Of a stretch of DNA of 42,109 nucleotides, positions 1,590-36,929 are shown piece after piece. The position numbers were made by a program, and so were the translations under genes. Source of the DNA: a virus; the IMG/VR virus record IMGVR_UViG_3300035670_000482, positions 1-42,109 of that record; one strand, written 5' to 3'. Under the pieces are notes generated by a model, which was given only the letters and a program-made list of their open reading frames with translations, did not search any database and was not told where the DNA came from. Each line of letters starts with the position of its first letter. Positions within the stretch are counted from its first letter, which is position 1.

Positions 1590-1619
1590 TTTATATAATT
1601 TGATTAAATTGCTATATAG
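1590..1619 (-). promoter_or_regulatory. Late-type promoter: CTATATAG + TATA box
   Basis: Minus strand: palindrome CTATATAG (1612-1619), 13 nt, then the TATA-like box TTATATAAA (1590-1598). Transcription should start near 1570, leaving a short leader carrying the GCGAGGA ribosome site before the ATG at 1551. The palindrome directly follows the TAA stop of the preceding gene. Same spacing as the elements at 5547, 8284 and 36900. Confidence 0.7.
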
Positions 1620-1994
1620 TTATTCTACTGCATTTTTAACTTCATTTTTTAGAATTTGCTTTATTCCATCTGCTAATACAAAAGCCGTATTTCTGAAATG
1701 TGGTCTGGCTTCCATTTTACTTGTCCCAAATTCAAGAAACTTAGCATAATCCAAATCTGAGAAAACAACCCCATCGTTTCCGGCTGTATCAAAATCAACT
1801 GAATTAAGAAAACGTCCTGTATCGACTGTGACGGGTGCATTTGTTCCTCTTGATATACTTTCCTTAACTTGCCCATGAACCATGATTGTAGCGTCTCTAA
1901 TGCCTTCTGGGAGGGCATCTTTTAGGGCATCTTGCTTTTCTTTCATTACTTTTTTAAGTTCTTCTATGTTAAGAATTTTAACTTCTACTTTCAT
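1620..1994 (-). CDS. HK97 gp10-like neck protein
   Basis: 124 residues. The C-terminal half carries the hallmark of the HK97 gp10 family: a stretch on the pattern DYAKFLEFGT followed by ARPHFRNTA. An N-terminal helix (EELKKVMKEKQDALKDAL) and a central basic segment fit as well. These proteins act at the head-tail interface. It overlaps the 1991-2401 gene by four bases, and its stop codon abuts the CTATATAG element that drives the next gene. Confidence 0.8.
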   Translation of the reverse strand: MKVEVKILNIEELKKVMKEKQDALKDALPEGIRDATIMVHGQVKESISRGTNAPVTVDTGRFLNSVDFDTAGNDGVVFSDLDYAKFLEFGTSKMEARPHFRNTAFVLADGIKQILKNEVKNAVE

Positions 1995-2401
1995 CCTATG
2001 ATTGGTCCTAAATTCCTTTTTAGATATACTTTTTTATATATCTTTGAATTTTCAACCTCATAAGAAAGTGTACCGTTCGGCATTATTTGACAAGTAAATT
2101 CAGCCGGACTACCTATCCCAATTTTAACTATTGAACCCAATGTTATTGAGCCAGTTATGTAAAGTTTTAAATCGTTTGGGGTTAATTTACCTTGTTCCAT
2201 TAAAACTCCATCTTGTGAACTGCTCGGCTCTAATGGAAATATAATCCCACTTGTGGCTAATACACTTGAACCTGTAAATACAACATCATCATCATAAACC
2301 GAACCTGTACCGATAGAATAATTAAAAGTTGTTATTAAGATGGGTCTGCCTATTAGACTTACTATCTTGTTAAATCCTGCTGTTAGGTTACTTTTAGTCA
2401 T
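1991..2401 (-). CDS. Head closure / connector protein (putative)
   Basis: 136 residues, mostly beta-strand by appearance, with a central Gly/Ser-rich part and a basic C-terminus (KIYKKVYLKRN). I do not recognise a signature. The gene lies between the adaptor-like gene and the gp10-like gene, overlapping both by four bases, where head-closure (stopper) proteins are usually encoded. The function is inferred from that position only. Confidence 0.45.
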   Translation of the reverse strand: MTKSNLTAGFNKIVSLIGRPILITTFNYSIGTGSVYDDDVVFTGSSVLATSGIIFPLEPSSSQDGVLMEQGKLTPNDLKLYITGSITLGSIVKIGIGSPAEFTCQIMPNGTLSYEVENSKIYKKVYLKRNLGPIIG

Positions 2402-2763
2402 GACAATGATTTAGCGAAATTAATTTTTCTGCCGAGTGCTTTCAGTTTTAAATCGCCTAAAATACGATATTCTGATGCACTTAGAAGTTCGCCTTTATCA
2501 TCCATAGAAAATTCTCCGAGTGAAATACTTTCTCCACCTGTCTGAGCATTAATTAAATCTACTACATCTGCCCTTGAAAAATCTAAAATTGCCCCTTGAT
2601 AAGCGTCTGGAATAGAATTAGAAGAAATTGAAACACCACAATAATTAGAAACGAATTGTTTATTTGCTTCAACTAAATCAATCATATTTCCACTTATACC
2701 AGTAGAAACTTGAAAAGTATTGACTATAAAAGTTGCTATACTACCAACTGAATTAAGTGTCAT
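2398..2763 (-). CDS. Head-tail adaptor protein (putative)
   Basis: 121 residues, largely helical, with segments such as MIDLVEANKQFVSNYCG and YQGAILDFSRADVVDLINA and a basic helical C-terminus (DLKLKALGRKINFAKSLS). This matches the size and helix content of gp6-type adaptors that dock on the portal. It follows the capsid gene and two small genes and overlaps the next gene by four bases. Assigned by fold impression and synteny. Confidence 0.5.
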   Translation of the reverse strand: MTLNSVGSIATFIVNTFQVSTGISGNMIDLVEANKQFVSNYCGVSISSNSIPDAYQGAILDFSRADVVDLINAQTGGESISLGEFSMDDKGELLSASEYRILGDLKLKALGRKINFAKSLS

Positions 2764-2960
2764 TATACTACTCCACTAATAGTGAATAATGCTCCACCTG
2801 CATTACATCTAAGAGGGATAATTGTTGATGTTCCGCTTATTATTCCACATAATAGAACTGCTGAGCATACTGCTGAACCTAAACTTATACCGCTAACTAC
2901 TGATGGGAATTTAGCCCACTCTCTATCTCTTAAACCTATATCTGCTATTGTAAATGTCAT
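2763..2960 (-). CDS. Small virion-region protein, unknown
   Basis: 65 residues, Gly/Ser/Ile-rich and largely hydrophobic, for example SAVCSAVLLCGIISG, which may be a membrane segment or a buried strand. The ATG follows AAGGAGGTAAA, a very strong ribosome site, so abundant expression is likely. Located between capsid and connector genes. No family recognised; a minor capsid component is a guess. Confidence 0.55.
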   Translation of the reverse strand: MTFTIADIGLRDREWAKFPSVVSGISLGSAVCSAVLLCGIISGTSTIIPLRCNAGGALFTISGVV

Positions 2961-2991
2961 TTTACCTCCTTATACTTAACTTTGTATTTTA

Positions 2992-3021
2992 TTTGTCGGT
3001 ATCGTATAAACACACGACAAA
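2992..3021 (-). terminator. Intergenic hairpin
   Basis: Inverted repeat of 7 bp (TTTGTCG with CGACAAA, 16-nt loop) between the 3029 and 2763 genes. It may attenuate or protect the transcript between highly and moderately expressed virion genes. Only the symmetry is seen. Confidence 0.35.
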
Positions 3022-3028
3022 AGTAAAT

Positions 3029-3259
3029 TTAAGTTGTTGAACCTAATGAATACCAAGTACTGCCTCCTGCAAATTCAGCCATGTAATACATCTCATTTAG
3101 TGGGTCTACTGCTATATCACTTCCGTTATTAGCTGTTAGAACTCCGTCTGGATTTCCAGCTACATAATAAACAGATGGGAAATTACCGCCATTTTTTAGA
3201 TGCTCGGCTAATCCGTCTGCTGCTCCTTTTACAAGACTTCCTGTTGTTGTTACTGCCAT
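3029..3259 (-). CDS. Small head-region protein, unknown
   Basis: 76 residues. The sequence opens MAVTTTGSLVKGAADGL and has a beta-rich second half ending in GGSTWYSLGSTT. The ATG follows AAAAGGAGGAAC. It sits just downstream of the major capsid gene, where small head proteins are common. No motif recognised. The 118 bases between it and the capsid stop hold a T-rich terminator and no supportable gene. Confidence 0.5.
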   Translation of the reverse strand: MAVTTTGSLVKGAADGLAEHLKNGGNFPSVYYVAGNPDGVLTANNGSDIAVDPLNEMYYMAEFAGGSTWYSLGSTT

Positions 3260-3345
3260 TGTTCCTCCTTTTGATTATGAAATAACTTTGCACGAGTTCA
3301 AAGATTTGTCGCCTCCTCTTTTACCCGCTCCGGTGTTATTAAACC

Positions 3346-3377
3346 TTAAAAAAATAAAAATAAAAAACTCTTCGTTT
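3346..3377 (-). terminator. T-rich terminator after capsid gene
   Basis: Directly after the capsid stop the minus strand has a weak AAAAAC/GTTTTT hairpin and three T tracts of five to seven. This is the usual look of an archaeal or intrinsic terminator after a highly expressed gene. Confidence 0.5.
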
Positions 3378-4229
3378 TTAAGATGTTGTAATCTTTGCTA
3401 CTGCTGCTGCTCTAAGCAATTGGACATCTATTCTCTGGGTTACGCTTGCTCCCTGCATATCATTTAGCGGGGTTACAAAATTCTCCACAGTAATATCTCT
3501 CTTAATTGCAATACCATATGCCTGACTTCTGTCAAAGATATATGCGTATTTTGCATAAGTAGAAGATGGTGCTGCGTTTGTTGAGAATTTAGCTACTCTC
3601 ATTCCAAAGATAGTTCCAACGAACCCTCTGCTCATCAATTCAGTGTTACCTGCCTTGTCTGCTTCTACAAAAGTGTCTATGTTCTGTAAGTCTGACAAAA
3701 CCTCCATACCTATAATTAGGTCTGTTGGCTCATAATCATTGTTATGAAGTCCAAGTATTCCTGCACTGAGATTTGCAATAGTGATACTTGCTCCGCCTGT
3801 AACAGCTGTAGTTGCACCATCAAGTGCTGTTAAGATAAGGTTAGTTTCATTTTCAGCAAATCTTTTACCTACTGTTCGTAGGTTGACTGCCAAAATATCA
3901 AACTGACTATCTTCCATCATCTCTCTGGTTATCTTCAAAGCAACTCCATACTTCTTAGGTGTGAATGTTACTGAAGAGAAATCAACATTATCAAGTGGAA
4001 TTTCAGCTGCCTCTGCAACCTGTTTAACAGCCAAACTATTTGGTGTTACAAGATTTACTGAAACGCTTGAACCCTCAAATCCAGTCTTAACCATTGCTGC
4101 CATTTCTCTTGGCAATAGAGCTTTGTCTACTGCGTCGATAAGTTCTGGCATGATTAACTTAGGAATTAAAAGTGTTCCTGCTGTACCATCGCCAGTGTTT
4201 ATGTATTCACTTATTTTACTGAATGCCAT
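3378..4229 (-). CDS. Major capsid protein, HK97 fold
   Basis: 283 residues. The N-terminal part (AGTLLIPKLIMPELIDAVDKALLPREMA) leads into the E-loop/P-domain pattern; later segments such as GVALKITREMMEDSQFD, the long helix LRTVGKRFAENETNLIL, and the C-terminal DRSQAYGIAIKRDITVE and MQGASVTQRID are typical of HK97-type major capsid proteins. Length is at the short end for the family, consistent with a separate protease gene upstream. Flanked by the decoration gene and by a terminator. The gene follows the 4231-4680 stop almost directly. Confidence 0.85.
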   Translation of the reverse strand: MAFSKISEYINTGDGTAGTLLIPKLIMPELIDAVDKALLPREMAAMVKTGFEGSSVSVNLVTPNSLAVKQVAEAAEIPLDNVDFSSVTFTPKKYGVALKITREMMEDSQFDILAVNLRTVGKRFAENETNLILTALDGATTAVTGGASITIANLSAGILGLHNNDYEPTDLIIGMEVLSDLQNIDTFVEADKAGNTELMSRGFVGTIFGMRVAKFSTNAAPSSTYAKYAYIFDRSQAYGIAIKRDITVENFVTPLNDMQGASVTQRIDVQLLRAAAVAKITTS

Positions 4230-4230
4230 T

Positions 4231-4680
4231 TTAACAATTTAGTGCGACGGCTCCATATAGCCCTTCATCAATAGCGTTGAAACTTCTACCAATTATATTG
4301 ACAGAACCAACTGCTGTTGCTGATGCTACTCCGCCCGATGAATGGAATACGCTACATCCTCCTGAGCAAGGCCCTCCTGCTCTAACAAGGAAAACTCCTT
4401 TCCTTGCAACTGCGACATAATTACTTGTTCCACTTGCTACATTATACAATGCTATTCCATTGCATTCTGTTTCAACAGATGGGCAAACATTTAGGTCTGA
4501 AACTGCGTATGCTGATACTACTGAGCCAAGTGTGTTACCGAGTGTTCCTGAACAGAAGACAAATTGCCCTCCTGAACATGTTTGGATACACCTTGCTGTG
4601 AATATGCACGGGTCCTCATTAGCGAATAGAACAACTGCCCCTGCTGGGTTGTGTGTTGCTGCTCCTGGTGTATAAACCAT
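4231..4680 (-). CDS. Capsid decoration-like protein, Cys-rich
   Basis: 149 residues, Gly/Ala/Ser/Val-rich beta protein lying between the prohead protease and major capsid genes, where head decoration or fibre proteins (for example the DUF2190 type) are encoded. It has nine cysteines (motifs QTCSGGQFVFC, GGPCSGGC), which is many for a capsid decoration protein and suggests disulfides or metal sites stabilising the shell. Its start overlaps the protease stop. Function inferred from context. Confidence 0.5.
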   Translation of the reverse strand: MVYTPGAATHNPAGAVVLFANEDPCIFTARCIQTCSGGQFVFCSGTLGNTLGSVVSAYAVSDLNVCPSVETECNGIALYNVASGTSNYVAVARKGVFLVRAGGPCSGGCSVFHSSGGVASATAVGSVNIIGRSFNAIDEGLYGAVALNC

Positions 4681-5525
4681 TATCTAACTAATGAGAAGGA
4701 CATACCTCTTAGTGAGCCGTAACCTTGAACGATGTTATACTTACTTTCCTTAACATCCTCTTTTGCCTCAATAAGTTCTGCCTTAGCCTTTGCTTCTGCT
4801 TTTGCTTCTTCCTCTGCCTTAGCTTCTTGTTCAGCCTTAGCTTCTTGTTCTGCTTCTGCTTTTGCCTCTTCTTCTGCTTCCTTTATCTTGGTTTTGAGTG
4901 CTTTAAGTTCTTCTTGTAGGTTTTTCATAGCTTCTGCCATTTCTGACATCTGCTTGTTTTCAACAACTTCAATTTTTTCGGCTTTTTCCTCCATCATTTT
5001 TAAACCTCCTTTCAATTCTTCATCATGTGATGATTGTGATATTTCTGCTTTTCTTGTGTTATATGCTTGATTTAATACAAAACCAAATGTTGCGTTTTCA
5101 TCTGCTGGAACTGCAACTAAACTTAGTTCTCTAAATTTAATTCCTCTGGGTGTAAGGGTGCCATCATCTGCTTCATCTACACTCGAAACGCTTGCCCCGA
5201 TAGAAACCGAGTTGATTAATCCCTGCTTAATCATGTCTTTAATTTCGTTGTCAATTACTTTTGCTTCAAATGGGATATTCTGGTTTACCTTGTCAAAAGA
5301 GGAATTAACAACTCTCCCTTTAATCGCACTTACTTCGTTTCGGTGGTCCACAAGAAGTGGCACTCCTTTCAAAGTTGGGGCTGACAATTCTAATTCTTCT
5401 GATAAAAATTTATGGTTATTTGCGGTTGTAGTTGCATTGATTGCTATACCCTTAATTAAAAAATCTTGATTACTTACTAAACTTTCACTTATCGGTACAT
5501 TGTATTTTAATTCTAATTCTTGCAT
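4680..5525 (-). CDS. Prohead protease with C-terminal scaffold-like coiled coil
   Basis: 281 residues. Residues 1-150 resemble HK97-type prohead proteases: His61 in LLVDHRNEV, the Ser-containing motif NSVSIGA (around 106-111) and the strand ELSLVAVPADENA. Residues about 175-260 are a Lys/Glu/Ala repeat coiled coil (EEEAKAEAEQEAKAEQEAK), the typical scaffold part, so protease and scaffold appear fused. The enzyme would digest the scaffold during head maturation. It is the first gene after a CTATATAG promoter and starts about 26 bp after the TATA centre, so it is probably leaderless. Confidence 0.8.
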   Translation of the reverse strand: MQELELKYNVPISESLVSNQDFLIKGIAINATTTANNHKFLSEELELSAPTLKGVPLLVDHRNEVSAIKGRVVNSSFDKVNQNIPFEAKVIDNEIKDMIKQGLINSVSIGASVSSVDEADDGTLTPRGIKFRELSLVAVPADENATFGFVLNQAYNTRKAEISQSSHDEELKGGLKMMEEKAEKIEVVENKQMSEMAEAMKNLQEELKALKTKIKEAEEEAKAEAEQEAKAEQEAKAEEEAKAEAKAKAELIEAKEDVKESKYNIVQGYGSLRGMSFSLVR

Positions 5526-5546
5526 AACAAACTTACATAATTAATC

Positions 5547-5576
5547 TATTTAAAATTTGATTAAAAAACTATATAG
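5547..5576 (-). promoter_or_regulatory. Late-type promoter: CTATATAG + TATA box
   Basis: Minus strand: CTATATAG (5569-5576), 13 nt, then TTTTAAATA (5547-5555). The protease ATG at 5525 lies about 26 bp beyond the box, as in leaderless archaeal mRNAs. The palindrome abuts the TAA of the preceding gene. Confidence 0.75.
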
Positions 5577-5903
5577 TTATTCTATTCTAATTAATGAGTT
5601 AATTAGAGTATCTTTTGGTCCAATAAAGATTAAATTAAGTTTTTCATTAACTAAGAATTTATCAAAAGTAAGTATATCTTCGGCTTTATTTACAGGTGTG
5701 CTTATTCTATTTCTTATTGAAAAACAATGGTTTCCGAACACTTCTTTACGATGAAATATTAAATAACCTAACTCGCTTTGTATTATTACTTCTATTTTAT
5801 TGTCTGTATCTATTATAAATGAGTTTAGATTTCCGTTTATTAAGTCTGTAACGAATAGTGCTTGGTTGCCTTCTAATTTAAGATTTACTGGGATTTCCAA
5901 CAT
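5577..5903 (-). CDS. Hypothetical protein, head module
   Basis: 108 residues, alternating strands and charged segments (LEIPVNLKLEGNQALFVTDL, KIEVIIQSELGYLIFHRKEV). No recognised family. Overlaps the 5878 gene by 26 bases and ends at the protease promoter. Its place between portal and protease suggests a minor virion or assembly protein. Confidence 0.55.
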   Translation of the reverse strand: MLEIPVNLKLEGNQALFVTDLINGNLNSFIIDTDNKIEVIIQSELGYLIFHRKEVFGNHCFSIRNRISTPVNKAEDILTFDKFLVNEKLNLIFIGPKDTLINSLIRIE

Positions 5904-6204: not shown

Positions 6205-6356
6205 TATTCGATTAACTCCAAAAGTTCTTTTCTTTTTTGTTCATTTAGTTTGATTGTTAATTTTTCTATGCACCTGCCACATAGCCAAATACCTCTCATT
6301 AATCCTATTGCCATTTCTTCGCACTTTTCACATTTGGGTCTTTCGTATATTTTCAT
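6204..6356 (-). CDS. Small zinc-knuckle protein
   Basis: 50 residues. Two CxxC pairs (KCEKC near residue 9 and LCGRC near residue 28) then a basic helix ending KRKELLELIE. This spacing forms a small zinc ribbon. The gene is coupled on both sides: ATGA overlap with the portal stop and TAATG overlap with the next gene, which supports a real gene despite its size. Role unknown. Confidence 0.65.
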   Translation of the reverse strand: MKIYERPKCEKCEEMAIGLMRGIWLCGRCIEKLTIKLNEQKRKELLELIE

Positions 6357-8263
6357 AGTTCTGCTATTGTAGTACATCTACAATTAACATGCAAAGGTGG
6401 TTGTGTCACATCGCCAACACTACTATTGAAACTTTCATTTATTCCGATTATCTGCCCATTTAATTCATTACAATATGGGCAAGTTCTATCTGACATCGCT
6501 GCTAACCATCTCTTTTTTTGTATTCCATTTTGTTTGTATAAGTCTATTAAACCTGAATTACTTACTCTGATAACTTCTGTTCGACTTATCATTTCTGGCC
6601 TTACACCTGCCGGGATTGTCTTTCCGTCTGAGGTTATTCTATCTCTTAATGTTATTCCATCTCTTATATTTTGTTCAATTTCACGCATGCTTTTATTTTT
6701 CTTAAATCCGTCTTTCAGGATTATTTTTAATTTATTTATATCGCTTTCGCTTAACAATCCATTTAACAATTCTGCATCATTTTTAGCAAGTAAATCCTCA
6801 AACTTATCTATTTTTAATCGTTTAAGTATTGCGATTAGATAATCAGAATAATTAAAACCTGGTATTTCTTTTAAGTCCATAAATTCCTTTACACTCATTT
6901 CTGAAAAGTTTTCTTCTATGTGTATATGAGCTTCTTCTCTTTTTACGCCTGGCACTTCTGGTTGCTTTAAGTCTTTTTCATCTTCTTTTTCTTTATTTGT
7001 TTCTTCCTTTGGCTCTGTTTCTCCGTTTATTACAGCATTACGCATTTCTTCTTTCTCTTTTTCCTTCTTTTCATCAAGTCCGACTTCCGGTTGAATTAAG
7101 AATTTTTCAGCTTCTTCAAAGTCAAGTAGTCTGGCAACTTCTAATTGTAACATTCTTCTCATATTTTCTGTTAGCATTGGATTATTCAATAAGAGTGTAA
7201 CTTTGTCTAATCTTGCGTTTATTTTTTCTTCGCTTGGTAAATTCCATATAAAATCTACTTCGTCTTTTTTACCTTGTTCTTCAAGATAGGGATAAATAAT
7301 CTGGTTTAAAATAATGTTCTCTATTTGGTCTTGATATGCCTGAATTTTCCTTTGAAATCCCTCTACTTGAACTTTGGCTATACCTTCGTTTAGTTGTCCT
7401 GAATTAAGCAATACTTCTGGTATATCTAATCCGCCGACTAAACTTAACATTTCTGAAGTTATTGTTTCTGTTAAACTCTTGCCTAAATCTCCGAAGTCTA
7501 CTACTTTCATATTTACATTTGCATCTGTAACCCATTCTGTTCTGTTTGTTAGATATTGTAAACTTGTCTTGAAGCTGTCTATATCTGCGGTATTAACACT
7601 TTCACCGGGCTGTCCTACTTGAACGTGGAGTGGTGCCCCAGCTTTTCTGCTTATCAACTTGGTTCTGTCTTGTTCGTTTGTGACTATGTTTTCGATTACT
7701 CTTTCATTAGGCATAATCAAACCTAAACCATAAGCGTCGTCTGCTATACCATTACATTTCCAGTGAGCAATTTGTTTAGGCAGAAAATAGTTAGGTTCTC
7801 TTTTGCCTTTTGTTAAAGAAGCATAATCATACCCTATAAATTGAGCATAACCAATCACATCGCCTTTTTTGTTTCTCTTTACGAACATATAATTTGCGTT
7901 TGATACTTTGAGTTTGCCGTTACTTATTTCAATAAATCCGTTTCCTTTAATTAGCCCTTCTCTCACCCATTCTCTTAAAACTACTGGCAAATTATTCTCT
8001 TTAATGAACTGCATTACAAGAGCCTTAACATTTTTATCTTTGCATTTTACAGCAAAATCAGTTATAATATTGTCTGTAATCTTATTTATTGCCCCGTTGA
8101 TTATTCCGACTTTTTTATAAACATTTTCACAATCTTCAAATTTGAATGGGTGTTCTACCCCTAACTCTCTTGGAAATCTTACTAATGGGTCTACTACTTC
8201 GCTTTTGAATTCTTTAATTAAGTCTGTGCCTTTCGTACTTATGTAACCTTTGACTTTTTGCAT
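6353..8263 (-). CDS. Portal protein fused to MuF-type minor head protein
   Basis: 636 residues. The first 400 or so match portal proteins in order and character: RFPRELGVEHPF, KGNGFIEI, the VIGYAQFIGYDYASL strand, FLPKQIAHWK, DAYGLGLIMPNERVIENI and the long helix ending GGLDIPEVLLNSG. An acidic/basic linker with many Glu and Lys follows (about 405-455). The last 120 residues carry the phage Mu gpF-type pattern with RTEVIRVSNSG, MSDRTCPYCNELNG and PPLHVNCRCT. The portal is the DNA gate and the MuF domain a minor head protein. The start follows a late-type promoter and is probably leaderless. Confidence 0.85.
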   Translation of the reverse strand: MQKVKGYISTKGTDLIKEFKSEVVDPLVRFPRELGVEHPFKFEDCENVYKKVGIINGAINKITDNIITDFAVKCKDKNVKALVMQFIKENNLPVVLREWVREGLIKGNGFIEISNGKLKVSNANYMFVKRNKKGDVIGYAQFIGYDYASLTKGKREPNYFLPKQIAHWKCNGIADDAYGLGLIMPNERVIENIVTNEQDRTKLISRKAGAPLHVQVGQPGESVNTADIDSFKTSLQYLTNRTEWVTDANVNMKVVDFGDLGKSLTETITSEMLSLVGGLDIPEVLLNSGQLNEGIAKVQVEGFQRKIQAYQDQIENIILNQIIYPYLEEQGKKDEVDFIWNLPSEEKINARLDKVTLLLNNPMLTENMRRMLQLEVARLLDFEEAEKFLIQPEVGLDEKKEKEKEEMRNAVINGETEPKEETNKEKEDEKDLKQPEVPGVKREEAHIHIEENFSEMSVKEFMDLKEIPGFNYSDYLIAILKRLKIDKFEDLLAKNDAELLNGLLSESDINKLKIILKDGFKKNKSMREIEQNIRDGITLRDRITSDGKTIPAGVRPEMISRTEVIRVSNSGLIDLYKQNGIQKKRWLAAMSDRTCPYCNELNGQIIGINESFNSSVGDVTQPPLHVNCRCTTIAEL

Positions 8264-8283: not shown

Positions 8284-8313
8284 CTTAAATAACTTGATTT
8301 TAAAACTATATAG
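8284..8313 (-). promoter_or_regulatory. Late-type promoter: CTATATAG + TATA box
   Basis: Minus strand: CTATATAG (8306-8313), 13 nt, then TTATTTAAG (8284-8292), and the portal ATG at 8263 about 25 bp beyond the box. The palindrome itself encodes the last residue and stop of the terminase gene. Confidence 0.75.
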
Positions 8314-9643
8314 CTATATATGGCTTATACTTTGAGCTTAGCTCATAAAACATACGCATCATTAGAGCATCTCCGAAGTCTGGGCTTCTGCCTAAGTGTT
8401 CTTTTATCTCTTCTTTTGGGGTTATCTGTATTCTCCCGTCTTTGTCTTTGTCTTTCCATTTGATTTGTTCTAAGTCCTCTATAATTAGCTTCTTAACCTC
8501 AATAGAGGCGTCTGGGATAGATATTTTACCATCGTTAATATATTCAGCCAACTTAAAGTAACATTGACTTTTCAGATTAGCGAAATTATATTGAGTATTC
8601 CCGGTTTCTATTTGTTTTGAATTATTTATAAATCTTTTAACGCCTTTTAATTGGTCTACTACACCACCGCCAATTCCATCATCATCTATTACTACGTTGC
8701 TTCTTGGTACGTTATATTGAGCTTGAAGTACTACGATTTGTTTAGCCGTTTCTTCGGTGTCTTTTCCATTGTAACTAATTATCTTTAAAACTTTTAATCC
8801 ATTCCAGACAATTAACACTGTTTTGTCGCTTCCGAAACGGGCAATATCACAAGTTATATAATAAGGCGATTTAGTTACTGGAATTGGATTTGTAAATATA
8901 TCTAATATCTTATCATAATCAAACAATTTACTTGGGTCATCATCGTACTCAAAATTACCATAAAGCAATCTCTCTTTGCTTACTTTATCTAATTTATGCA
9001 AGTTCTCTATGTAATATTTTGAAATATATTGATTATCTCCAACTAAAGCAGGTATAAACTTTCTATAATTAGGTAAAGTATTTGTTGTATAAGGTTTATA
9101 AAATTCTGAATAAAGAAAATTCTTAGTGGGATTTGAGCATACTAATAGTTTTGGCTTTAGGTTATATTCTTTCAATTTATATCTTATTCTGCTCATAAGT
9201 ATATTATATGCCTTGTGAGTTATCTGCGAACCCTCGTCTATAAATGCCCCCGTGAATTCAGTTGAACCCAACTCATCAAATTCCGGGTCTGACGGATACA
9301 TAAATAAATCTTTTAAATAAATTTCAGAACCATTGCTAAATTTTATTGTCCCCTCCATAGAATTATATCTATAATCTATATCTTTTTTTAAGTTATATTT
9401 ACTGAAAATTCCGAATAGTGTCAAAAGGGTACTTTCTTTTAGAGTTTTTAGTACAGCCCTACCAATTAACCATCTTGTTTCGGGATAAGTTAGGCACATA
9501 GATAATACCCAAAAACAACCTAATAAAGATTTTCCTCCTCCCGCTGCCCCGCCAAAAAATATCTCTGTTGTGGTGTCATCAGTTAAACATCTCCATGCTT
9601 CCATCTGTTTGCTCGTGGGTTCCCAGATAATTTTATTTTCCAA
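8306..9643 (-). CDS. terL: Terminase large subunit
   Basis: 445 residues. Walker A GGAAGGGKS at 31-39, Walker B with the catalytic acid AFIDEGSQ around 133-140, and the motif VCSNPTK near 168. The RNase H-like nuclease half shows CDIARFGSDKT (Asp266), VVIDDDGIGGG (about 317-327) and PDFGDALMM near the end. The enzyme pumps DNA into proheads and cuts it. Usual family length. The start overlaps the HNH gene that separates it from the small subunit gene. Confidence 0.95.
   Translation of the reverse strand: MENKIIWEPTSKQMEAWRCLTDDTTTEIFFGGAAGGGKSLLGCFWVLSMCLTYPETRWLIGRAVLKTLKESTLLTLFGIFSKYNLKKDIDYRYNSMEGTIKFSNGSEIYLKDLFMYPSDPEFDELGSTEFTGAFIDEGSQITHKAYNILMSRIRYKLKEYNLKPKLLVCSNPTKNFLYSEFYKPYTTNTLPNYRKFIPALVGDNQYISKYYIENLHKLDKVSKERLLYGNFEYDDDPSKLFDYDKILDIFTNPIPVTKSPYYITCDIARFGSDKTVLIVWNGLKVLKIISYNGKDTEETAKQIVVLQAQYNVPRSNVVIDDDGIGGGVVDQLKGVKRFINNSKQIETGNTQYNFANLKSQCYFKLAEYINDGKISIPDASIEVKKLIIEDLEQIKWKDKDKDGRIQITPKEEIKEHLGRSPDFGDALMMRMFYELSSKYKPYIAI

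Positions 9644-10628: not shown

Positions 10629-10632
<4 letters not shown>
10135..10632 (-). CDS. terS: Terminase small subunit
   Basis: 165 residues. N-terminal helix-turn-helix of the TerS type: FMRGVTISRIAKEHNLSKGT then IWIWADEGNWEEEREKLIEELK. A central helical oligomerisation part and a C-terminal tail follow. It would bind the packaging site and load the large subunit. Overlaps the methyltransferase gene by four bases. Confidence 0.8.
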
Positions 10633-11829
<1,197 letters not shown>

Positions 11830-11843
<14 letters not shown>

Positions 11844-12519: not shown

Positions 12520-12798
12520 TTATACTCCTATTGGATATTTATTTAATTGTTTTTCAGAGTTAGAAATTGTTTCTTCTCTGATTTTGATTTCGCTTTCTAT
12601 AATCTTTAATACTTTACTATCTTCTTCGTCTTTTTGATTTCTTAAAAATTCTCTCCATTTATCTTCGAACGCTCTCTGGTCTTTCTGTCTGGTGATTAAG
12701 GCAATATTATATTCAAGATTTTTTTTAAGTTGGGCTATTTCTTTTTGGTTTTTCTCTATTCCGTTTTTCTCTAATTTGATTATTTCTTTTTTATTCAT
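12520..12798 (-). CDS. Coiled-coil protein
   Basis: 92 residues, nearly all helical and charged (MNKKEIIKLEKNGIEKNQK and onward), with heptad-like Leu/Ile spacing. Overlaps the RHH-like gene upstream by eight bases. No catalytic motif; a binding or structural role is likely. Confidence 0.6.
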   Translation of the reverse strand: MNKKEIIKLEKNGIEKNQKEIAQLKKNLEYNIALITRQKDQRAFEDKWREFLRNQKDEEDSKVLKIIESEIKIREETISNSEKQLNKYPIGV

Positions 12799-12973
12799 GT
12801 GCTAAGTAAGAAGGGTCTATTTGTTTAATTTGGTTATCTATTAAGTCGATTATTAAAACATTTAAATCGAAGCCAGTATCTTTATACTTCTCAATAAATT
12901 CTATTTGTCTATATGGAATTGTGATTGACTTGTTATATTTTCTGTTTCTGAGTTCCTTTATTTGTTTTGGCAT
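12791..12973 (-). CDS. Ribbon-helix-helix-like regulator (putative)
   Basis: 60 residues: basic N-terminus, a strand (KSITIPYRQ), a helix, a turn and a second helix (FDLNVLIIDLIDNQIKQID). This resembles the RHH (Arc/CopG) DNA-binding fold. It is the first gene after an archaeal-type promoter and begins about 26 bp after the TATA centre, so the mRNA is probably leaderless. It may regulate its own operon, which leads to the methyltransferase and packaging genes. Confidence 0.55.
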   Translation of the reverse strand: MPKQIKELRNRKYNKSITIPYRQIEFIEKYKDTGFDLNVLIIDLIDNQIKQIDPSYLAHE

Positions 12974-26898: not shown

Positions 26899-28139
26899 AG
26901 TTCATTAAATAGATTTTCAAATTGCTGTGCTACTTTCTGAAAGTCATATTTTTCTGTTACTGCTTTAATTCCGTTTTCGCCCATTACTTTTCTAATCTCT
27001 GGATTATTAGCCAGAAATACTATCTTATTCGCAGCATCAGTTATTTCACATAAGCCCCTTTCTACTTCCCAACTGCCCATTAAAGTACCATTTATAATCT
27101 TTAAATCGTATTCCTTTGAGTTCATTATGAAAAAGTCTTTATAATTTACTTCTTCGCAACCTGCTAATTTTATACCTAATCCTGCTTGGTTCTCCTCAAC
27201 TAATTCTGGCGTAGTAGTATATTGTGTTGCTAAAACAGGTACTCCACATTTCATTGCCTCTATTATTGGAATACCAAAACCTTCTCCACTTGTAGATAAA
27301 AAGAATATATCCATTAAATTATAAACATCGTTCATTTCTGCTTGTCCGAACCCTTCATGACATCGCATTCCAGAAAAAAATACTCTATTCTCTAAATTAT
27401 ATCTCTGTATCATTTTACCCATATTGAAAGTCTGTCCAGCTGGGTCGTTAGGGTCTAAGTGTAAAAATAAAACTGCGTTTGGTATTTTGTCTTTCATTAA
27501 GGCAAAACTCTTAAAAGTTCTGTCTAACATTTTTCTTGGCTGATTTCGTGCAACTACTCCAACAACAAATTTGTCCGTTAAACCCCATTTGGCTCTTAAT
27601 CTATTTCGTTCTTCTTCGCTTAATTTTCTGAATAGGTTTATGTTTAATCCGTGTGGAATATGCCTTACATTTAAATTGTGATAATCTTTAACTTGTTTCT
27701 GTCCGAATTTAGCCATAGCCACTGGACAATCTACTTTCTTTAATATTTGTTCGCAGTTATTCGGTAACCCGTTTCCTCCGTCTGATGGAAACCAAAACAC
27801 ACTTTTAGCCGGGCTTAAATCTATTTCTAATAATCTTGGATAAAGCATAAAGGTATCTAACAGAATAAATAAAATATCTGTTTTAGTTTTCTTTAAATGT
27901 TCGGACAGAGTATTCATAAAATAAGAGTGTATCATTTCGCCATAGACTTTAAAGTTTATTTTTGTTCCATCAAACAATTCAGCATTTTTTATTGTCATTC
28001 CATTATAAGCATTGCCCAGAAAATGCACCTCGTATCCTCTCTCTGTTAAGTATTGAGCCAACATCAAACTTTGGTTCCTATACCCAGTTGGAATAAAACA
28101 ACTATCAGATAAAATAGTAATAACTTTAGGTGTAGGCAT
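26886..28139 (-). CDS. Glycosyltransferase, GT4 family
   Basis: 417 residues from ATG 28139, downstream of GAGGAGA. GT-B fold with the EX7E motif in GEGFGIPIIEAMKCGVPVLAT, VVGVVARNQPRKMLD in the linker and IPHGLNINLFRKLS. The N-terminal domain opens KVITILSDSCFIPTGY. It is the first large gene of the glycan operon, after the AbrB-like gene, which it overlaps by 14 bases. Confidence 0.9.
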   Translation of the reverse strand: MPTPKVITILSDSCFIPTGYRNQSLMLAQYLTERGYEVHFLGNAYNGMTIKNAELFDGTKINFKVYGEMIHSYFMNTLSEHLKKTKTDILFILLDTFMLYPRLLEIDLSPAKSVFWFPSDGGNGLPNNCEQILKKVDCPVAMAKFGQKQVKDYHNLNVRHIPHGLNINLFRKLSEEERNRLRAKWGLTDKFVVGVVARNQPRKMLDRTFKSFALMKDKIPNAVLFLHLDPNDPAGQTFNMGKMIQRYNLENRVFFSGMRCHEGFGQAEMNDVYNLMDIFFLSTSGEGFGIPIIEAMKCGVPVLATQYTTTPELVEENQAGLGIKLAGCEEVNYKDFFIMNSKEYDLKIINGTLMGSWEVERGLCEITDAANKIVFLANNPEIRKVMGENGIKAVTEKYDFQKVAQQFENLFNELCST

Positions 28140-28332
28140 AATTTTCAATCTCCTCTTTTGTCGGTTTGAATAAACAACCACTCTCGCAAAATATTCCGTA
28201 TCTTGTGCCTATCTTAATGACTTCATATTTAAAAGAAACTTCTGGGAAAAATTCTGCAATATCGTTTGGTATTGCCAATCCTTTTAACTCTTTGCCACTC
28301 TTTTCATAAGCGATTGTTCTTAATTTACCCAT
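28126..28332 (-). CDS. AbrB-like DNA-binding regulator (putative)
   Basis: 68 residues. The centre reads KGLAIPNDIAEFFPEVSFKYEVIKIGTRYG, close in pattern to the swapped-hairpin AbrB fold (basic strand, IPxxI helix start, then two strands). It would bind DNA as a dimer. It is leaderless by position (TATA centre 24 bp upstream) and has the palindrome CTATATAG between TATA box and ATG, the site found in late promoters, so autoregulation plus control of virion genes is a plausible hypothesis. Confidence 0.55.
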   Translation of the reverse strand: MGKLRTIAYEKSGKELKGLAIPNDIAEFFPEVSFKYEVIKIGTRYGIFCESGCLFKPTKEEIENYAYT

Positions 28333-28336
28333 GAAA

Positions 28337-28360
28337 CTATATAGTAACCATCTTTATAAA
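28337..28360 (-). promoter_or_regulatory. Promoter of AbrB-like gene with downstream CTATATAG
   Basis: TATA box TTTATAAAG (28352-28360) followed by CTATATAG (28337-28344) in the space before the ATG at 28332. The palindrome would cover the start of transcription, a place used by repressors. In the late promoters the same palindrome lies upstream of the TATA box. Confidence 0.6.
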
Positions 28361-28361: not shown

Positions 28362-28640
28362 TTAATTAAATAAACTATTTATTTTTTTAATTGCTTTTTT
28401 GATTGTTCTTTTTGAATTAACTATTAAATCTAAATGGTCCTGCATCTTCTTATTCTTTGGCTGAAAGATTGTTGTGATTAAACCCTTTTCTTTTAACTTT
28501 TTTAAATGATTGACTAATCTTATATAATCGTGTTTGAGCCTTTCCTTTACGAGAATATAATTCCCAGTATTCACAACAAAATTAAACTTTCTAATGTCTT
28601 TAATATCCTTAACATAAACTACTTCTATTAAATGTTCCAT
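28362..28640 (-). CDS. Small basic protein, unknown
   Basis: 92 residues, basic and helical in the second half (LVNHLKKLKEKGLITTIF, KMQDHLDLIVNSKRTIKK). Leaderless by position. The helix LVNHLKKLKEKGLI resembles part of a winged-helix segment, so a regulator is possible but not shown. Confidence 0.5.
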   Translation of the reverse strand: MEHLIEVVYVKDIKDIRKFNFVVNTGNYILVKERLKHDYIRLVNHLKKLKEKGLITTIFQPKNKKMQDHLDLIVNSKRTIKKAIKKINSLFN

Positions 28641-31571: not shown

Positions 31572-31584
31572 TCGCTTTGCTCCT

Positions 31585-31875: not shown

Positions 31876-31979
31876 TTTACCCTCCAAGAATAACCAAGAT
31901 TTTCTTTACCACCAGCTAAATAGCCCTCACTAATATTCAAACCAATCTTTTTTAATATTTCTGACATAATTTTATTCAT
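31872..31979 (-). CDS. Very small protein
   Basis: 35 residues (opens MNKIMSEILKKIGLNISEG). ATGA overlap with the next gene and start after CTCGGAGGC. Too small to assign. Confidence 0.45.
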   Translation of the reverse strand: MNKIMSEILKKIGLNISEGYLAGGKENLGYSWRVK

Positions 31980-32715: not shown

Positions 32716-32998
32716 TTTGAGTGCCTCCGAGTTGTTTCTCAAACTCCTCTGCAAATAATTTCAAACTCTTATAGAATTGGTCTATCCAGTGATGAATAAT
32801 GTTTTCTATGTGTGTTCCACACTTCTCACATCTCTCTCCAAAATAGCTGTCTGATATTTTTATGTTTTCCTCGTCTAAAAACTTCTTGAACTCTTTGAGA
32901 GCTTCGGCTCTGCCTTCTTGTCTCGCCCAATCCATACATCTTAATCTTTCTTCTTCTGTATGAACTTTCTTTCCTTTTGTTAATCTTATTGTTTTCAT
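32708..32998 (-). CDS. Hypothetical protein with CxxC
   Basis: 96 residues. Basic start (KTIRLTKGKKVHTEEERL), a helical middle and a CEKCGT pair near residue 59, then helices. Leaderless by position from the TATA box at 33020. First gene of the run of short genes. No family recognised. Confidence 0.55.
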   Translation of the reverse strand: MKTIRLTKGKKVHTEEERLRCMDWARQEGRAEALKEFKKFLDEENIKISDSYFGERCEKCGTHIENIIHHWIDQFYKSLKLFAEEFEKQLGGTQNV

Positions 32999-33019
32999 AA
33001 TAAATATAGATTATTAGAG

Positions 33020-33028
33020 TTTATAAAT
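33020..33028 (-). promoter_or_regulatory. Archaeal-type TATA box for 32998 gene
   Basis: ATTTATAAA on the minus strand, centred about 26 bp before the ATG at 32998. Confidence 0.6.
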
Positions 33029-33280
33029 TTTATTATTTAGCCAATATCCTTTAGCCAAGCCCACGCTTCGCTTTTCCCCACTTACTCGCAGACCACCCGC
33101 TGAACTTTGTTCCCTTCTGGCGAGTGATTTGGAAAAAACTTTTTTTTGTTTAACCGCTCACGCCTTTTCTGCAAAGTTACAGCAACTGGATAAACCATAC
33201 CGAACTGCCTCAATAAACCCCGATAATAACTTGTCCACCTTGCGTTTCCACTTGGCTTCTATCGCATTAATATCGTTCTT
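33029..33280. other. G+C-richer intergenic stretch, interrupted minus-strand frame
   Basis: No intact gene seen. The minus strand continues the frame of the small gene at 33281-33394 beyond its TAA, with 40 coding-like codons to a TGA, then about 47 more. It also has an inverted CACTCGC/GCGAGT pair near 33080-33130. The base composition is less A+T-rich than its surroundings. It may be a decayed gene, an RNA, or both. Confidence 0.4.
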
Positions 33281-33394
33281 TTATTGATATGTCGTTAAGC
33301 TTGTGGCTATATGTTGTTCACCCGGATTTGCACCTAATCCATTTTTTTTCTTGTTTAGCATTTCAGCATTGAGGTCATTGAGCGCACAGCGCAT
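33281..33394 (-). CDS. Small protein, possibly a truncated gene
   Basis: 37 residues, opening MRCALNDLNAEMLNKKKNG. It follows a TATA box (33436-33444), with transcription start expected near 33414. The frame stays open after the stop but for a TAA and a TGA, so this may be the 5' end of a broken longer gene. Start codon and reality are not certain. Confidence 0.35.
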   Translation of the reverse strand: MRCALNDLNAEMLNKKKNGLGANPGEQHIATSLTTYQ

Positions 33395-33435
33395 CTCTAC
33401 CAACTTAGCAAGTGCTATTTTAATAATATATTAGA

Positions 33436-33444
33436 ATATATAAA
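33436..33444 (-). promoter_or_regulatory. TATA box before 33394 region
   Basis: TTTATATAT on the minus strand, preceded by GAAAC and, a few bases further upstream, an imperfect palindrome GGACGCCCGTC. The expected start of transcription is near 33414. Confidence 0.5.
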
Positions 33445-33504
33445 TGTTTCTGGGATGACGGGCGTCCCCTAAATCCCTTTTAAATTATAAATAAATTAAC
33501 TATT

Positions 33505-33548
33505 TAAACCTATCGAAAATAAAAAAATAAATAAACTATTTATTAGCT
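33505..33548 (-). terminator. T-rich terminator after 33549 gene
   Basis: The minus strand just past the stop of the acidic protein gene has several T tracts with interspersed A/T (TTTATTTATTTTTTTATTTT). Confidence 0.4.
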
Positions 33549-34046
33549 TTAAGCCAATGTATATATAAGTTCTTCTACTTCGTTGTCTTCAATAACAACC
33601 TCTGCGTCTACGTAAACTTTCAAATCGTTTCCGTCTGCATCTTCGTAGTAAACTTTCAACTCATACTCGACATCTGCGTCTTTATCATCAACATCAGAAG
33701 TTACTTCGCTATCTTTTACAATAACAGAACTTATATCTTCCTTGTCAACGATTGATACGTTTTGAGATACAAGATAATCAAACAAATCTTCATATTCGTC
33801 ATCTTTAATCTCTTTCAAAGCTAAATCTTTTGCGTCATTTTCCCAATTATCCTCTTCGGATATTTTATTGGAAATAGCCAAAATATCTGCTTTAATTGCA
33901 GTATCGTTGTATGGTGTTTGTACAATAACTGGCTTTTCTACCTGAACTATTTGTGGCTCACTCTGGTTTAACAAGACATAACCTGTCAAACAAAGTGATA
34001 CAATAGACAATACGAGTATTGTGGCCAGCAATCCTGAATTTTCCAT
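33549..34046 (-). CDS. Acidic membrane-anchored or secreted protein
   Basis: 165 residues from ATG 34046, nine bases past GGAGGG. An N-terminal hydrophobic helix (LLATILVLSIVSLCLTGYVLL) is followed by a very acidic domain rich in Asp and Glu (DSEVTSDVDDKDADVEYEL and similar) with repeated strand patterns. The TATA box at 34100 places the transcript start after the ATG at 34088, so the 34046 start is chosen. It may act on the cell surface or envelope during infection. Confidence 0.6.
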   Translation of the reverse strand: MENSGLLATILVLSIVSLCLTGYVLLNQSEPQIVQVEKPVIVQTPYNDTAIKADILAISNKISEEDNWENDAKDLALKEIKDDEYEDLFDYLVSQNVSIVDKEDISSVIVKDSEVTSDVDDKDADVEYELKVYYEDADGNDLKVYVDAEVVIEDNEVEELIYTLA

Positions 34047-34099
34047 TTTTTTGTGCCCTCCTTTCAATGAATTTGAGTGCTTTTCCATGTTTTTAGTAT

Positions 34100-34109
34100 G
34101 TTTTTAAAC
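34100..34109 (-). promoter_or_regulatory. TATA box for acidic protein gene
   Basis: GTTTAAAAAC on the minus strand. Expected transcription start is near 34080, giving a leader that carries GGAGGG before the ATG at 34046. Confidence 0.5.
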
Positions 34110-34118
34110 CTTTTAAAT

Positions 34119-34316
34119 TTATGTTTTCCATAGTCCAATAAACTTTCTGGGTTTTTCGTTATTATTACAAGCTATCATTTCGTCAAATTCTCCTGAACTA
34201 ATTAACTCTACTTGTTCAAAATCTTCTGGCTTTGCGTTTGTGTTTAAACCATTCTCTTTAATAAATAAAGTATTTATATTAGGTTCGGAGTTTATAAGAT
34301 TAATATAGAGTGTCAT
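34119..34316 (-). CDS. Small protein after tail fibre genes
   Basis: 65 residues, strand start (TLYINLINSEPNINTLFI) and acidic middle (NAKPEDFEQVELISSGEFDEM). Overlaps the fibre-like gene upstream by one base. Possibly a fibre chaperone or small tail protein; no signature. Confidence 0.5.
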   Translation of the reverse strand: MTLYINLINSEPNINTLFIKENGLNTNAKPEDFEQVELISSGEFDEMIACNNNEKPRKFIGLWKT

Positions 34317-34957
34317 TAGAATTGTTTTATCCTATCGGTATGTTCGTACCAATTTCCTTCGTAATCAATTAAATTGAGTGGACTTAAACTGATTATCTCC
34401 CATAAATAAGTTGTTCCGGATTTCAAGATTATTTCGTTTTCTGCTCTGGTTCCACCTTGCCCTCTTAATGGTTGTCCTACTGTTCCTCCACTTACTCCGA
34501 ACCTTGATGAAAAGATTTTAGTTCCACTTGTCGGAGTTCCACCGCTTACTACCGGATTATAAGTTATACTTAATATGCTTATTTTGTTTGCATTTCTATT
34601 TGAATTAATTGGAGTTACACTTATTGCCCCAGAAAGAGTTGCCCCTTCAAAAATATTAAATTCTGTAACTTGTGTAGAATTAACATTAAATAACATATGA
34701 ACCCATTTAGAGCCATTTTGAGTTGTAGTTCCAAAGCAAGTGCAACCGCCTGAATTAACTATTGAAAATCCTTGTATAAAGAAATGGTTTCCATCGTGTA
34801 ATTCGTGATGAGGATAATCTATACTTGGAATTGCTGAACTTGATTTATCTTGATAAACATAACCACCTGAACCTTTAAGAACCGAGTTTATACTTCCGTC
34901 TGGGTTTACTGCCATAAAATATCCGCTTCCATTTCCATCAATTATTTGCTCTGCCAT
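34316..34957 (-). CDS. Tail fibre/spike-like protein
   Basis: 213 residues. Gly/Ser/Asn-rich beta-type sequence (GSGYFMAVNPDGSINSVLKG at the start, then IPSIDYPHHELHDGNHFF), like phage tail tip and receptor-binding proteins. The opening resembles the N-terminal anchoring parts of fibre proteins. Follows the holin-like gene. Function inferred from composition and place. Confidence 0.5.
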   Translation of the reverse strand: MAEQIIDGNGSGYFMAVNPDGSINSVLKGSGGYVYQDKSSSAIPSIDYPHHELHDGNHFFIQGFSIVNSGGCTCFGTTTQNGSKWVHMLFNVNSTQVTEFNIFEGATLSGAISVTPINSNRNANKISILSITYNPVVSGGTPTSGTKIFSSRFGVSGGTVGQPLRGQGGTRAENEIILKSGTTYLWEIISLSPLNLIDYEGNWYEHTDRIKQF

Positions 34958-35145
34958 TATATCATTATTTTAAATAATTCTGTTCCGCCTATTGCCAATG
35001 TTAAAACACCTAACCAGAAGTATTGTAGTTTCTGATTAAACCTATATCCTTCTATACAGACTTTCAAATTGTTTAAATTATTATATAAAACTACGTGTTG
35101 CTGTGAGTTATTCAGTTTCTTAAAATCTTCTATTTGTATGTCCAT
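34957..35145 (-). CDS. Small C-tail-anchored protein, holin-like (putative)
   Basis: 62 residues. A soluble coiled-coil half (DFKKLNNSQQHVVLYNNLNNLKV) and a C-terminal hydrophobic helix (YFWLGVLTLAIGGTELFKIM). Single-helix small membrane proteins beside a peptidase-like gene are often lysis proteins. Overlaps the peptidase gene by 16 bases. Could instead anchor a tail-tip protein. Confidence 0.45.
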   Translation of the reverse strand: MDIQIEDFKKLNNSQQHVVLYNNLNNLKVCIEGYRFNQKLQYFWLGVLTLAIGGTELFKIMI

Positions 35146-35687
35146 TTTAGATATTTACTCCTTGTTAAGTGTGTCGGACTTATTAGGTCAAAAGGTATTT
35201 TAAATTCGCTTTTATCTTTTTCTTCTGGGTTTTCTGGGTTATAACCTAATTGAATATGTTTGTCTGAACACTCATATAAAATTCTACTTACTGCTTCTGA
35301 ACAAATTAGTTTCTTTGCTCCACTTATCTTAGTTACATATCTTCCGAAAACCAATACAGAAGCTATCTTAATCAAATCAAAAAATCCGTATGGTGTACCT
35401 AAGTACTTATCACAAGTTTTCTTAACATTTGTTAATAGTCTTTTGCTTTCGCCTAAACATATTTCGCCTTTTTCTAATCTTTCGTTTAGTTCTTCTGGGT
35501 TATATTCTGACTTTGTAAAGCCGTTTGATATTGCTTCATAGACTAAAACTTTTCTTTCTACTGCTCCTATTATTGCCGAATGTGTCCAGCCTTCTTCTTT
35601 GAACATTAATTTATTATAATAAGTAATCAATTTACCTACTAAACTTCTTTGATTTCTAAAATTTATTACTTGCCCGACTTTAAACAT
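35130..35687 (-). CDS. Permuted NlpC/P60-like cysteine peptidase (putative lysin)
   Basis: 185 residues. Catalytic His motif GWTHSAIIG near residue 35 precedes the Cys motif LICSEAVSRILYE near 127, the order of circularly permuted NlpC/P60 (YiiX-like) peptidases. LGTPYGFFDLIKIA fits the substrate-site helix. It could cut envelope peptides or host proteins during entry or lysis. The archaeal host wall is unknown, so the substrate is open. Confidence 0.65.
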   Translation of the reverse strand: MFKVGQVINFRNQRSLVGKLITYYNKLMFKEEGWTHSAIIGAVERKVLVYEAISNGFTKSEYNPEELNERLEKGEICLGESKRLLTNVKKTCDKYLGTPYGFFDLIKIASVLVFGRYVTKISGAKKLICSEAVSRILYECSDKHIQLGYNPENPEEKDKSEFKIPFDLISPTHLTRSKYLKWTYK

Positions 35688-35877
35688 TCTCTAAAGCCTC
35701 CAAACGATTATTTAAGCCACTCAATACAACTTTGATATTATTTAATTTATTATCAACATTTCTTGAAAAGTTGGCTATTCTTTTCATGTTTTTATAAATT
35801 CTTAATAAATGAAATTGGCTATCTCCAGCTATAATATTGTTTAATTCTGCTTCATCGTTGTCTAATTCTTCTTCCAT
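35680..35877 (-). CDS. Small coiled-coil protein
   Basis: 65 residues, helical and charged (LLRIYKNMKRIANFSRNVDNKLNNIKVVLSGL within residues 24-55) with heptad-like hydrophobic spacing. Between two tail genes. Likely a trimeric or dimeric stalk or assembly helper. Confidence 0.5.
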   Translation of the reverse strand: MEEELDNDEAELNNIIAGDSQFHLLRIYKNMKRIANFSRNVDNKLNNIKVVLSGLNNRLEALENV

Positions 35878-36878
35878 TATAGGTTATATATTGCACCATA
35901 GTTTTTTGTTATAAATTGGGTTGTTGAACCCCCAGATACACAAAACATAAATTTAACAAAACTTCCTCCATTAGTGGATGCAAAACTTAAATCTTTTGTT
36001 TGTGTCCAAGAAGTACCGCTATTTGTGGATATGTAAAAACTTCCATTTTCTCCGTATACATTGGCCAAAGGCATTATATTCGTTGTAGAACCAACCATAG
36101 AACCAGTAACAGGTAAATAAGAACCATTTAAACCTGCTCCAGAAGTTAAATTATAAAAATACAAGCTATCAATATAATAATGTCCTTCGAAGGTATTTCC
36201 ATAGAATTTTATTTTAAAATCGCTTCCTGTTAGAGTATGGTTCCAGGCTCGATATAATCCTCTACCGCCGACTGCCCCCATTCTTGGATTTCCGGATGCC
36301 AATGTTAAAGCATATTCTGGGGTTAATAATATATCATAAACAGCATTACTATCCCATTCTGATTGTGGAAACTCGCTCACCAAAATAGAACCACCTGCTC
36401 CAGTGAACCATATTTGTAAAGTCCCAAAACCTGGGTTTGCTCCTTGAAGAAAATTTACTCTAAGCATTCCTGCTCTAATATTTTTTGTAAATGTACTCTC
36501 TACTCCAGTGCCACTATAAATAGTTAATTTTCCGCTTACTATCGCAGGACTTCCAGTTAGCGTCCACGAACCAGTATTTAATGAAGTAAAATCATCTATA
36601 AGTACCATACTTCCATCTGAAATTAAGTTTGGATTTGGCATTATAACGGAAGGGAAAAAAGCAGTATCTGCACCCGAGGTTATATTAAAAGCATTTGCAC
36701 TACCGCCAGTGGGCATTCCAAAAGTATTAAATATATTTTTTGTTTTATGAGTTGAAGGCAAACCTGAATAAGCATAAAAATTATTTCTAAATGCAACTCC
36801 TTGTAGACTAATTGCTCTGTTTACTTCACTTGCATAGAGTATGTCACCGTCTACTTTTGGAAATTGTCCTTCTGTCAT
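35877..36878 (-). CDS. Tail fibre protein (putative)
   Basis: 333 residues. Starts with a short anchoring-like segment (PKVDGDILYASEVNRAIS) then Gly/Ser/Thr-rich beta sequence (SFYISTNSGTSWTQTKDLSF near the end). This fits tail fibre or receptor-binding proteins. First gene after a CTATATAG promoter, with TATA centre about 26 bp before its ATG, so leaderless. Confidence 0.55.
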   Translation of the reverse strand: MTEGQFPKVDGDILYASEVNRAISLQGVAFRNNFYAYSGLPSTHKTKNIFNTFGMPTGGSANAFNITSGADTAFFPSVIMPNPNLISDGSMVLIDDFTSLNTGSWTLTGSPAIVSGKLTIYSGTGVESTFTKNIRAGMLRVNFLQGANPGFGTLQIWFTGAGGSILVSEFPQSEWDSNAVYDILLTPEYALTLASGNPRMGAVGGRGLYRAWNHTLTGSDFKIKFYGNTFEGHYYIDSLYFYNLTSGAGLNGSYLPVTGSMVGSTTNIMPLANVYGENGSFYISTNSGTSWTQTKDLSFASTNGGSFVKFMFCVSGGSTTQFITKNYGAIYNL

Positions 36879-36899
36879 ATTTATTTTTATTTAACTATA

Positions 36900-36929
36900 C
36901 TTAAATAACTTAACTTATTAGCTATATAG
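36900..36929 (-). promoter_or_regulatory. Late-type promoter: CTATATAG + TATA box
   Basis: Minus strand: CTATATAG (36922-36929), 13 nt, then TTATTTAAG (36900-36908). Matches the 5547 and 8284 elements. The palindrome follows directly after the TAA of the 37289 gene. Confidence 0.75.

Follow-up and report, generated by a model that had tools for sequence, protein, structure and literature searches.

The virus contig IMGVR_UViG_3300035670_000482, analysed here over its full 42,109 nucleotides (the window), carries on its minus strand a promoter family in which an 8-bp palindrome, CTATATAG, precedes a TATA box by exactly 13 bp at the head of each of four virion operons. We are close to certain that this late promoter family is real. 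A fifth copy of the palindrome lies on the other side of a TATA box, at the gene for a protein of 68 amino acids (aa), and we consider it rather likely that a dimer of this protein is a switch that would activate the late operons from the upstream palindromes and repress early genes, its own included, from the downstream ones.

Four virion promoters share a palindrome at one spacing

The initial annotation had described four minus-strand sites at which CTATATAG is followed by 13 nt and a TATA 9-mer, and all of their coordinates were confirmed. The operator at 1612–1619 and the TATA box TTATATAAA at 1590–1598, with a BRE-like AATCAA before it (BRE, B recognition element), precede the tail-terminator operon (gene 1099–1551); the operator at 5569–5576 and the box TTTTAAATA at 5547–5555 precede the protease/major capsid operon (first gene 4680–5525); the operator at 8306–8313, overlapping the terminase stop codon, and the box TTATTTAAG at 8284–8292 make up the portal promoter (gene 6353–8263); and the operator at 36922–36929 and a second TTATTTAAG box at 36900–36908 make up the promoter of the gene in the fibre position (35877–36878). 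As had been described, each of the four palindromes abuts or overlaps the stop of the gene before it, and three of the genes start close behind their box, at 20–21 nt from the end of the 9-mer to the ATG. ATCAA or TTAA stands just upstream of the box and is kept in relatives, so that the sites have the layout of an archaeal promoter, with TATA about 25–30 bp before the start and a BRE directly upstream. The late TATA boxes of the window are weak. From the centre of the palindrome to that of the TATA box is about 22 bp, or two helical turns, which puts the palindrome just past the BRE on its upstream side.

CTATATAG occurs five times in the window against 0.7 expected, a count reached in none of 100 shuffles, and four of the five copies are followed by a TATA box after exactly 13 bp. 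When every 8-bp palindrome was considered at every spacing up to 40, CTATATAG and TATA at N13 formed the strongest pair in the window (n=4); in 200 dinucleotide shuffles no palindrome with a G/C pair exceeded three, and CTATATAG at N13 never exceeded one. The 100 and 200 shuffle runs thus exclude a similar frequency and spacing at random, the outcome that the initial annotation had named as fatal to its claim.

The promoter family is conserved in relatives

A search of relatives for CTATATAG-N13-TATA had been proposed as a check, and for the exact word it failed: CTATATAG is not enriched in 133 related contigs (14 sites, against 52 expected by base composition). The check succeeded for another form at the same place and spacing. 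Upstream of their portal and protease genes, relatives carry GTATATAC or a near form, then ATCAA or TTAA, then TATTTAAA or TATATAAA; GTATATAC keeps the TATATA core and the 13-bp spacing of CTATATAG, and its outer base pair is swapped. Exact duplicates were removed where sites were counted, and some counts include near-identical contigs. The clade has 41 distinct GTATATAC sites, and at 25 of them a TATA 8-mer follows exactly 14 nt on, equivalent to the N13 of the window plus a T; at other spacings the mean is about 1.2 sites, and no such peak appears for control palindromes containing a G/C pair. These 25 GTATATAC sites and four of the five CTATATAG sites of the window share with promoters of the TFB-RF1 type a palindrome that stands upstream of the BRE at a constant distance.

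A matrix of 43 positions, built from 68 sites of relatives with the window left out, places the window's four promoters 1, 2, 3 and 5 among about 84,000 positions: tail terminator first (score 30.2), then protease, portal and, at rank 5, the fibre position. Promoter scores of at least 20 bits were found before the portal (16/30), protease (19/43) and tail-terminator genes (16/27) and at the fibre position (5/8), and before one of 254 other structural genes tested; the operon heads so marked in the clade are the same four as in the window. Scanning 2.9 million viral contigs with the pattern GTATATAC-N8-TYAA-NN-TATWTAAA matched 23 stretches, of which 20 belong to the clade and stand before portal, protease, tail-terminator or fibre-position genes; the other three share one sequence and come from unrelated contigs without a homologue of the clade's virion genes. 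Matrix, spacing, gene scores and scan agree that the arrangement first annotated, with the palindrome a constant distance upstream of TATA before virion operons, is conserved across the clade.

TATATA words are common in AT-rich DNA, and chance or base composition could be invoked on that ground to explain the sites, but this explanation is contradicted by the shuffles, by the out-of-sample ranking with the matrix, by the restriction to particular genes and by the scan of the whole collection, and we regard its probability as negligible. Two other roles for the palindrome were considered and put aside: as a target of the virus's methylase (10629–11843) its fixed spacing would be unexplained, and as a second TBP box its conserved outer G/C pair would be. 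One relative, L117, carries a repeated promoter of a different kind, TATAAATCTTTATAAAGGCTAAT, with small variations before several operons (positions 1365, 4407, 8552, 14410 and 15983).

A hairpin occupies the leader of the tail promoter

The tail-terminator gene has a longer leader than the other three, and this leader is occupied by a hairpin (1552–1571, minus strand; arms TTTATCC and GGATAAA around the loop AAGCGA) that abuts the ATG of gene 1099–1551. The hairpin recurs in relatives (L083:12922, L091:9542, L103:12706, L107:14478, L163 near 10370, and others) with an invariant loop, and its 5-bp stem pairs in all 25 contigs compared, although 24 of these were chosen for a stem of at least four pairs. 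Many compensating sequences and G-U pairs make up the stem, with 125 of 125 cells paired against about 30% in shifted controls, and a second AAGCGA often overlaps the ATG or closely precedes it. Rfam gave no match in the window, hairpin included. The hairpin is likely to be an RNA site for translational control.

The palindrome also lies downstream of early TATA boxes

The initial annotation counted four sites and missed the fifth CTATATAG, at 28337–28344 on the minus strand. This copy, a putative repressor operator, lies downstream of the early-type TATA box TTTATAAA (28353–28360, minus strand) of the 68-aa gene (28126–28332, minus strand) and 4 nt before its ATG, in the arrangement TATA-N8-CTATATAG. 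In four relatives (G001, G002, G003 and G013) the transcript with the 68-aa orthologue starts with TTTATAWA-N7-GTATATAC, and in a fifth, G031, a contig that the late-promoter pattern brought up later, TATA-N7-GTATATAC also stands at the orthologue, a prediction that held. The promoter of the 68-aa gene therefore has a palindrome downstream of TATA in six genomes. By itself TATA-N7-GTATATAC is too frequent to be specific; it is informative only where an ATG follows at once. All seven GTATATAC sites of G031, a 43-kb genome, are of two kinds: four late sites upstream of TATA, at the portal, protease, tail-terminator and fibre genes, and three early sites, each with an early TATA box before it and an ATG after it. 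Within any one genome, early and late sites have an identical outer base pair; this pair changes from one genome to another, as would fit a single reader in each.

As a rule, archaeal activators occupy DNA upstream of the BRE and recruit TBP or TFB, and repressors occupy the TATA box or DNA downstream of it (PMC5512572). The late sites are at the activator position and the early sites at the repressor position. We propose that the palindrome is read by a small dimeric protein encoded by the virus, the likeliest being the 68-aa product of 28126–28332. Bound upstream of the BRE, the dimer would help TBP and TFB to assemble and so turn on the four virion operons (portal; protease and capsid; tail; fibre), which we infer to be late in timing; bound between TATA and the start codon, it would block initiation at its own gene and, in G031, at two further early genes. 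The position of the site would set the sign, yielding an early-to-late switch with negative feedback, and one dimer of position-dependent sign appears to be the most economical model of these sequences.

The downstream site is a repressor position, and the palindrome might therefore be a repressor site everywhere, with the late genes held off early and released later. The late palindromes, however, stand past the BRE at one exact spacing, and the weak late TATA boxes are as expected of activator-dependent promoters, so that we judge repression at all sites very improbable.

A 68-aa protein is the leading candidate for the reader

The palindrome at its own promoter makes the 68-aa product our first candidate. 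The gene is present in all but one near-complete relative, with orthologues in G001, G002, G003, G004, G013, G023 and G031 and more distant ones in G022 and G038. Its motif, GLxIPNDIAxFF or GLTVPNEIAxFF, and its strand order, assigned by eye, resemble AbrB swapped-hairpin proteins, and it is possibly AbrB-like. Open frames directly after TTTATAWA-N7-GTATATAC provide indirect support for the protein as reader: among the 120 stretches listed there are seven, three of which belong to the 68-aa family, and two more, from unrelated contigs, have AbrB-superfamily-like profile matches, one to PF04014 (E=3e-5, just under the cut-off) and one to DUF2080 (E=2e-6), which we take to be filed with AbrB-like domains. 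Profile comparison of the 68-aa protein with the AbrB family gave a weak match, in register (P=0.018), and the AbrB/MazE/SpoVT profile PF04014 did not match it at E values up to 10; taken together, the Pfam, NCBIfam, PHROGs and PDB sequence searches and the profile comparison gave AbrB membership no significant support. Foldseek against viral models returned nothing.

Two further observations concern a neighbour of this gene and the downstream element. A 92-aa protein (28362–28640, minus strand) adjoins the 68-aa gene in every genome that has it. On the minus strand of L276, an open reading frame starting at about base 576, after TATA-N7-GTATATAC, has a DUF2080/AbrB-like beginning and an end like a phage minor head protein.

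The initial annotation had also proposed a dimeric, virus-coded activator that contacts TBP or TFB. What stands of this, by inference, is a dimeric viral reader, in view of the palindrome at a conserved viral gene and of an outer pair that shifts together with the late sites. The same two observations bear on whether the reader is a host activator that the virus borrows. Host activators of this promoter design are known, namely TFB-RF1 and EarA (PMC5937170, PMC5512572), but a viral reader accounts more naturally for a conserved viral gene having the palindrome at its promoter and for an outer pair that differs between viruses at all sites together, and we find borrowing improbable.

A second viral candidate is a 60-aa protein (12791–12973, minus strand) with a ribbon-helix-helix (RHH)-like layout, which would activate the late operons and repress the 68-aa gene as an early target. 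Its gene is conserved across the clade near the terminase genes, and its putative DNA-contact strand, at positions that usually touch bases, reads NKSITI in the window and mostly QRSIGF in relatives. RHH dimers read palindromes of about 8 bp, a match in size that counts for the 60-aa protein; the 68-aa candidate does not look like an RHH protein. On the other side, where the RHH-like gene has an early promoter of its own, the leader contains TAATTAA or TTAATTA in 9 of 9 genomes (0.04 expected per leader) and lacks the palindrome, which suggests that the protein has a different operator, candidate TTAATTAA; in addition, it matches nothing in Pfam or NCBIfam, and its RHH layout was assigned by eye. 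We therefore think it unlikely, if less so than a host activator, that this protein is the reader. The leaders of the RHH-like gene in L112, L125, L135, L110, L127, L103, L031 and L108 contain TAATTAA or TTAATTA and may represent a second operator system.

Several observations weigh against the 68-aa protein as a position-dependent switch. G004 has the 68-aa gene and no clear palindrome at its late promoters, and some members of the clade have other late promoters, such as L117 with TATAAATCTTTATAAAGGCTAAT; these cases indicate evolutionary turnover of the switch. No virus other than the window was found to have the CTATATAG form at all its sites, so that operator and protein covary in one lineage only, and the window's RHH-like protein is changed as well, at its putative DNA-contact strand, as is the operator. 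The 68-aa protein matches no family profile in Pfam, NCBIfam, PHROGs or a PDB sequence search; its AlphaFold2 model is moderate (pLDDT 81, pTM 0.54) and that of an orthologue poor (54), and the top Foldseek matches, the AbrB-like C56 and C68, have E above 1. We hold to the 68-aa dimer at the strength given above, and offer with more reserve, as a tentative proposal, its fuller form: a viral two-way switch, probably of AbrB fold, that turns each virion operon on from a palindrome two turns upstream of TATA, and early genes and its own gene off from one 7–8 bp downstream of TATA, the outer pair having been re-coded in concert at all sites in one lineage.

Genome organization and probable host

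The genome is complete and circularly mapped at 41,982 bp: the first and last 127 bases of the 42,109-bp record (1–127 and 41983–42109) are an identical terminal repeat, so that the contig closes into a circle, though the record is classed as linear. It belongs to an HK97-type tailed virus, with its virion genes on the minus strand: terminase (8306–9643), portal (6353–8263), protease (4680–5525), major capsid (3378–4229), neck (1620–1994), tail terminator (1099–1551), major tail protein (79–1089), tape measure (40263–41486), a tail protein (37301–40261) and the fibre-position gene (35877–36878). First genes have a TATA box about 20 nt before the ATG and inner genes GGAGG-type ribosome sites, a combination from which the host is probably an archaeon. 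Among sequenced phages the only capsid relatives are one halovirus (29%) and one distant Bacillus phage (22%), and the terminase relatives are Bacteroidota phages; aligning capsid and portal against 85,000 genomes found no related provirus from which to assign a host. Between 14875 and 28181 (minus strand) this 42-kb virus carries a large block of glycosyltransferase and sugar epimerase/dehydratase genes together with a B12-radical-SAM protein.

Relation to known switches

The initial annotation suggested that a virus-coded late switch of this design would be new. The principle is already known, from a similar host design (TFB-RF1; PMC5937170) and from a viral protein that both activates and represses (AvtR; PMC5569661), and it is the variant that is new. 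The nearest working analogue is TFB-RF1 of Pyrococcus. Its promoters in Thermococcales combine a TATA box and a weak BRE with a palindrome at a conserved upstream distance, and the activator recruits TFB and has its gene beside one of its targets (PMC5937170); here, too, the palindrome lies upstream at a conserved distance, and the candidate regulator gene itself has a copy, downstream of TATA. TFB-RF1 differs in being a host system with a 13-nt palindrome, TCTGAANTTCAGA, and no virus late genes, whereas here the palindrome also lies downstream of early TATA boxes.

The nearest viral likeness is AvtR of Acidianus filamentous virus 6, which has a number of sites on its genome; it represses the gene that encodes it and is able to activate another (PMC5569661). 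AvtR is likewise a small virus-coded DNA-binding protein acting with both signs, but it is a tandem RHH protein that spreads along DNA and has an imperfect 16-nt site, its sign set by concentration; in the present virus the sign seems to depend on placement at a fixed position, and virion operons are the targets. C68 (pSSVx) and C56 (pSSVi), AbrB-like proteins of archaeal mobile elements, are also small and possibly of swapped-hairpin type, and C68 binds by its own gene, at TATG(C/GG)TTTTC (PMC5569661), a sequence unlike our palindrome. Among tailed archaeal viruses the nearest late-promoter class is that of halovirus HF2, with one repeated promoter class at late morphogenesis genes, another at early-middle genes and a proposed viral regulator (PMC8707807); it differs in its sequences and in having neither a fixed-distance palindrome nor a candidate operator on a regulator gene. 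We found no description of the present palindrome in archaea in the literature searched.

To our knowledge, late timing is hardly known in archaeal viruses, which have no RNA polymerase of their own and for which few virus-coded activators have been described. Given complete sets of sites for several genomes, together with a candidate regulator and an operator changed in nature, the proposed switch becomes testable with one small protein and short DNAs, and it would provide a simple rule for reading early versus late genes in uncultured archaeal viruses.

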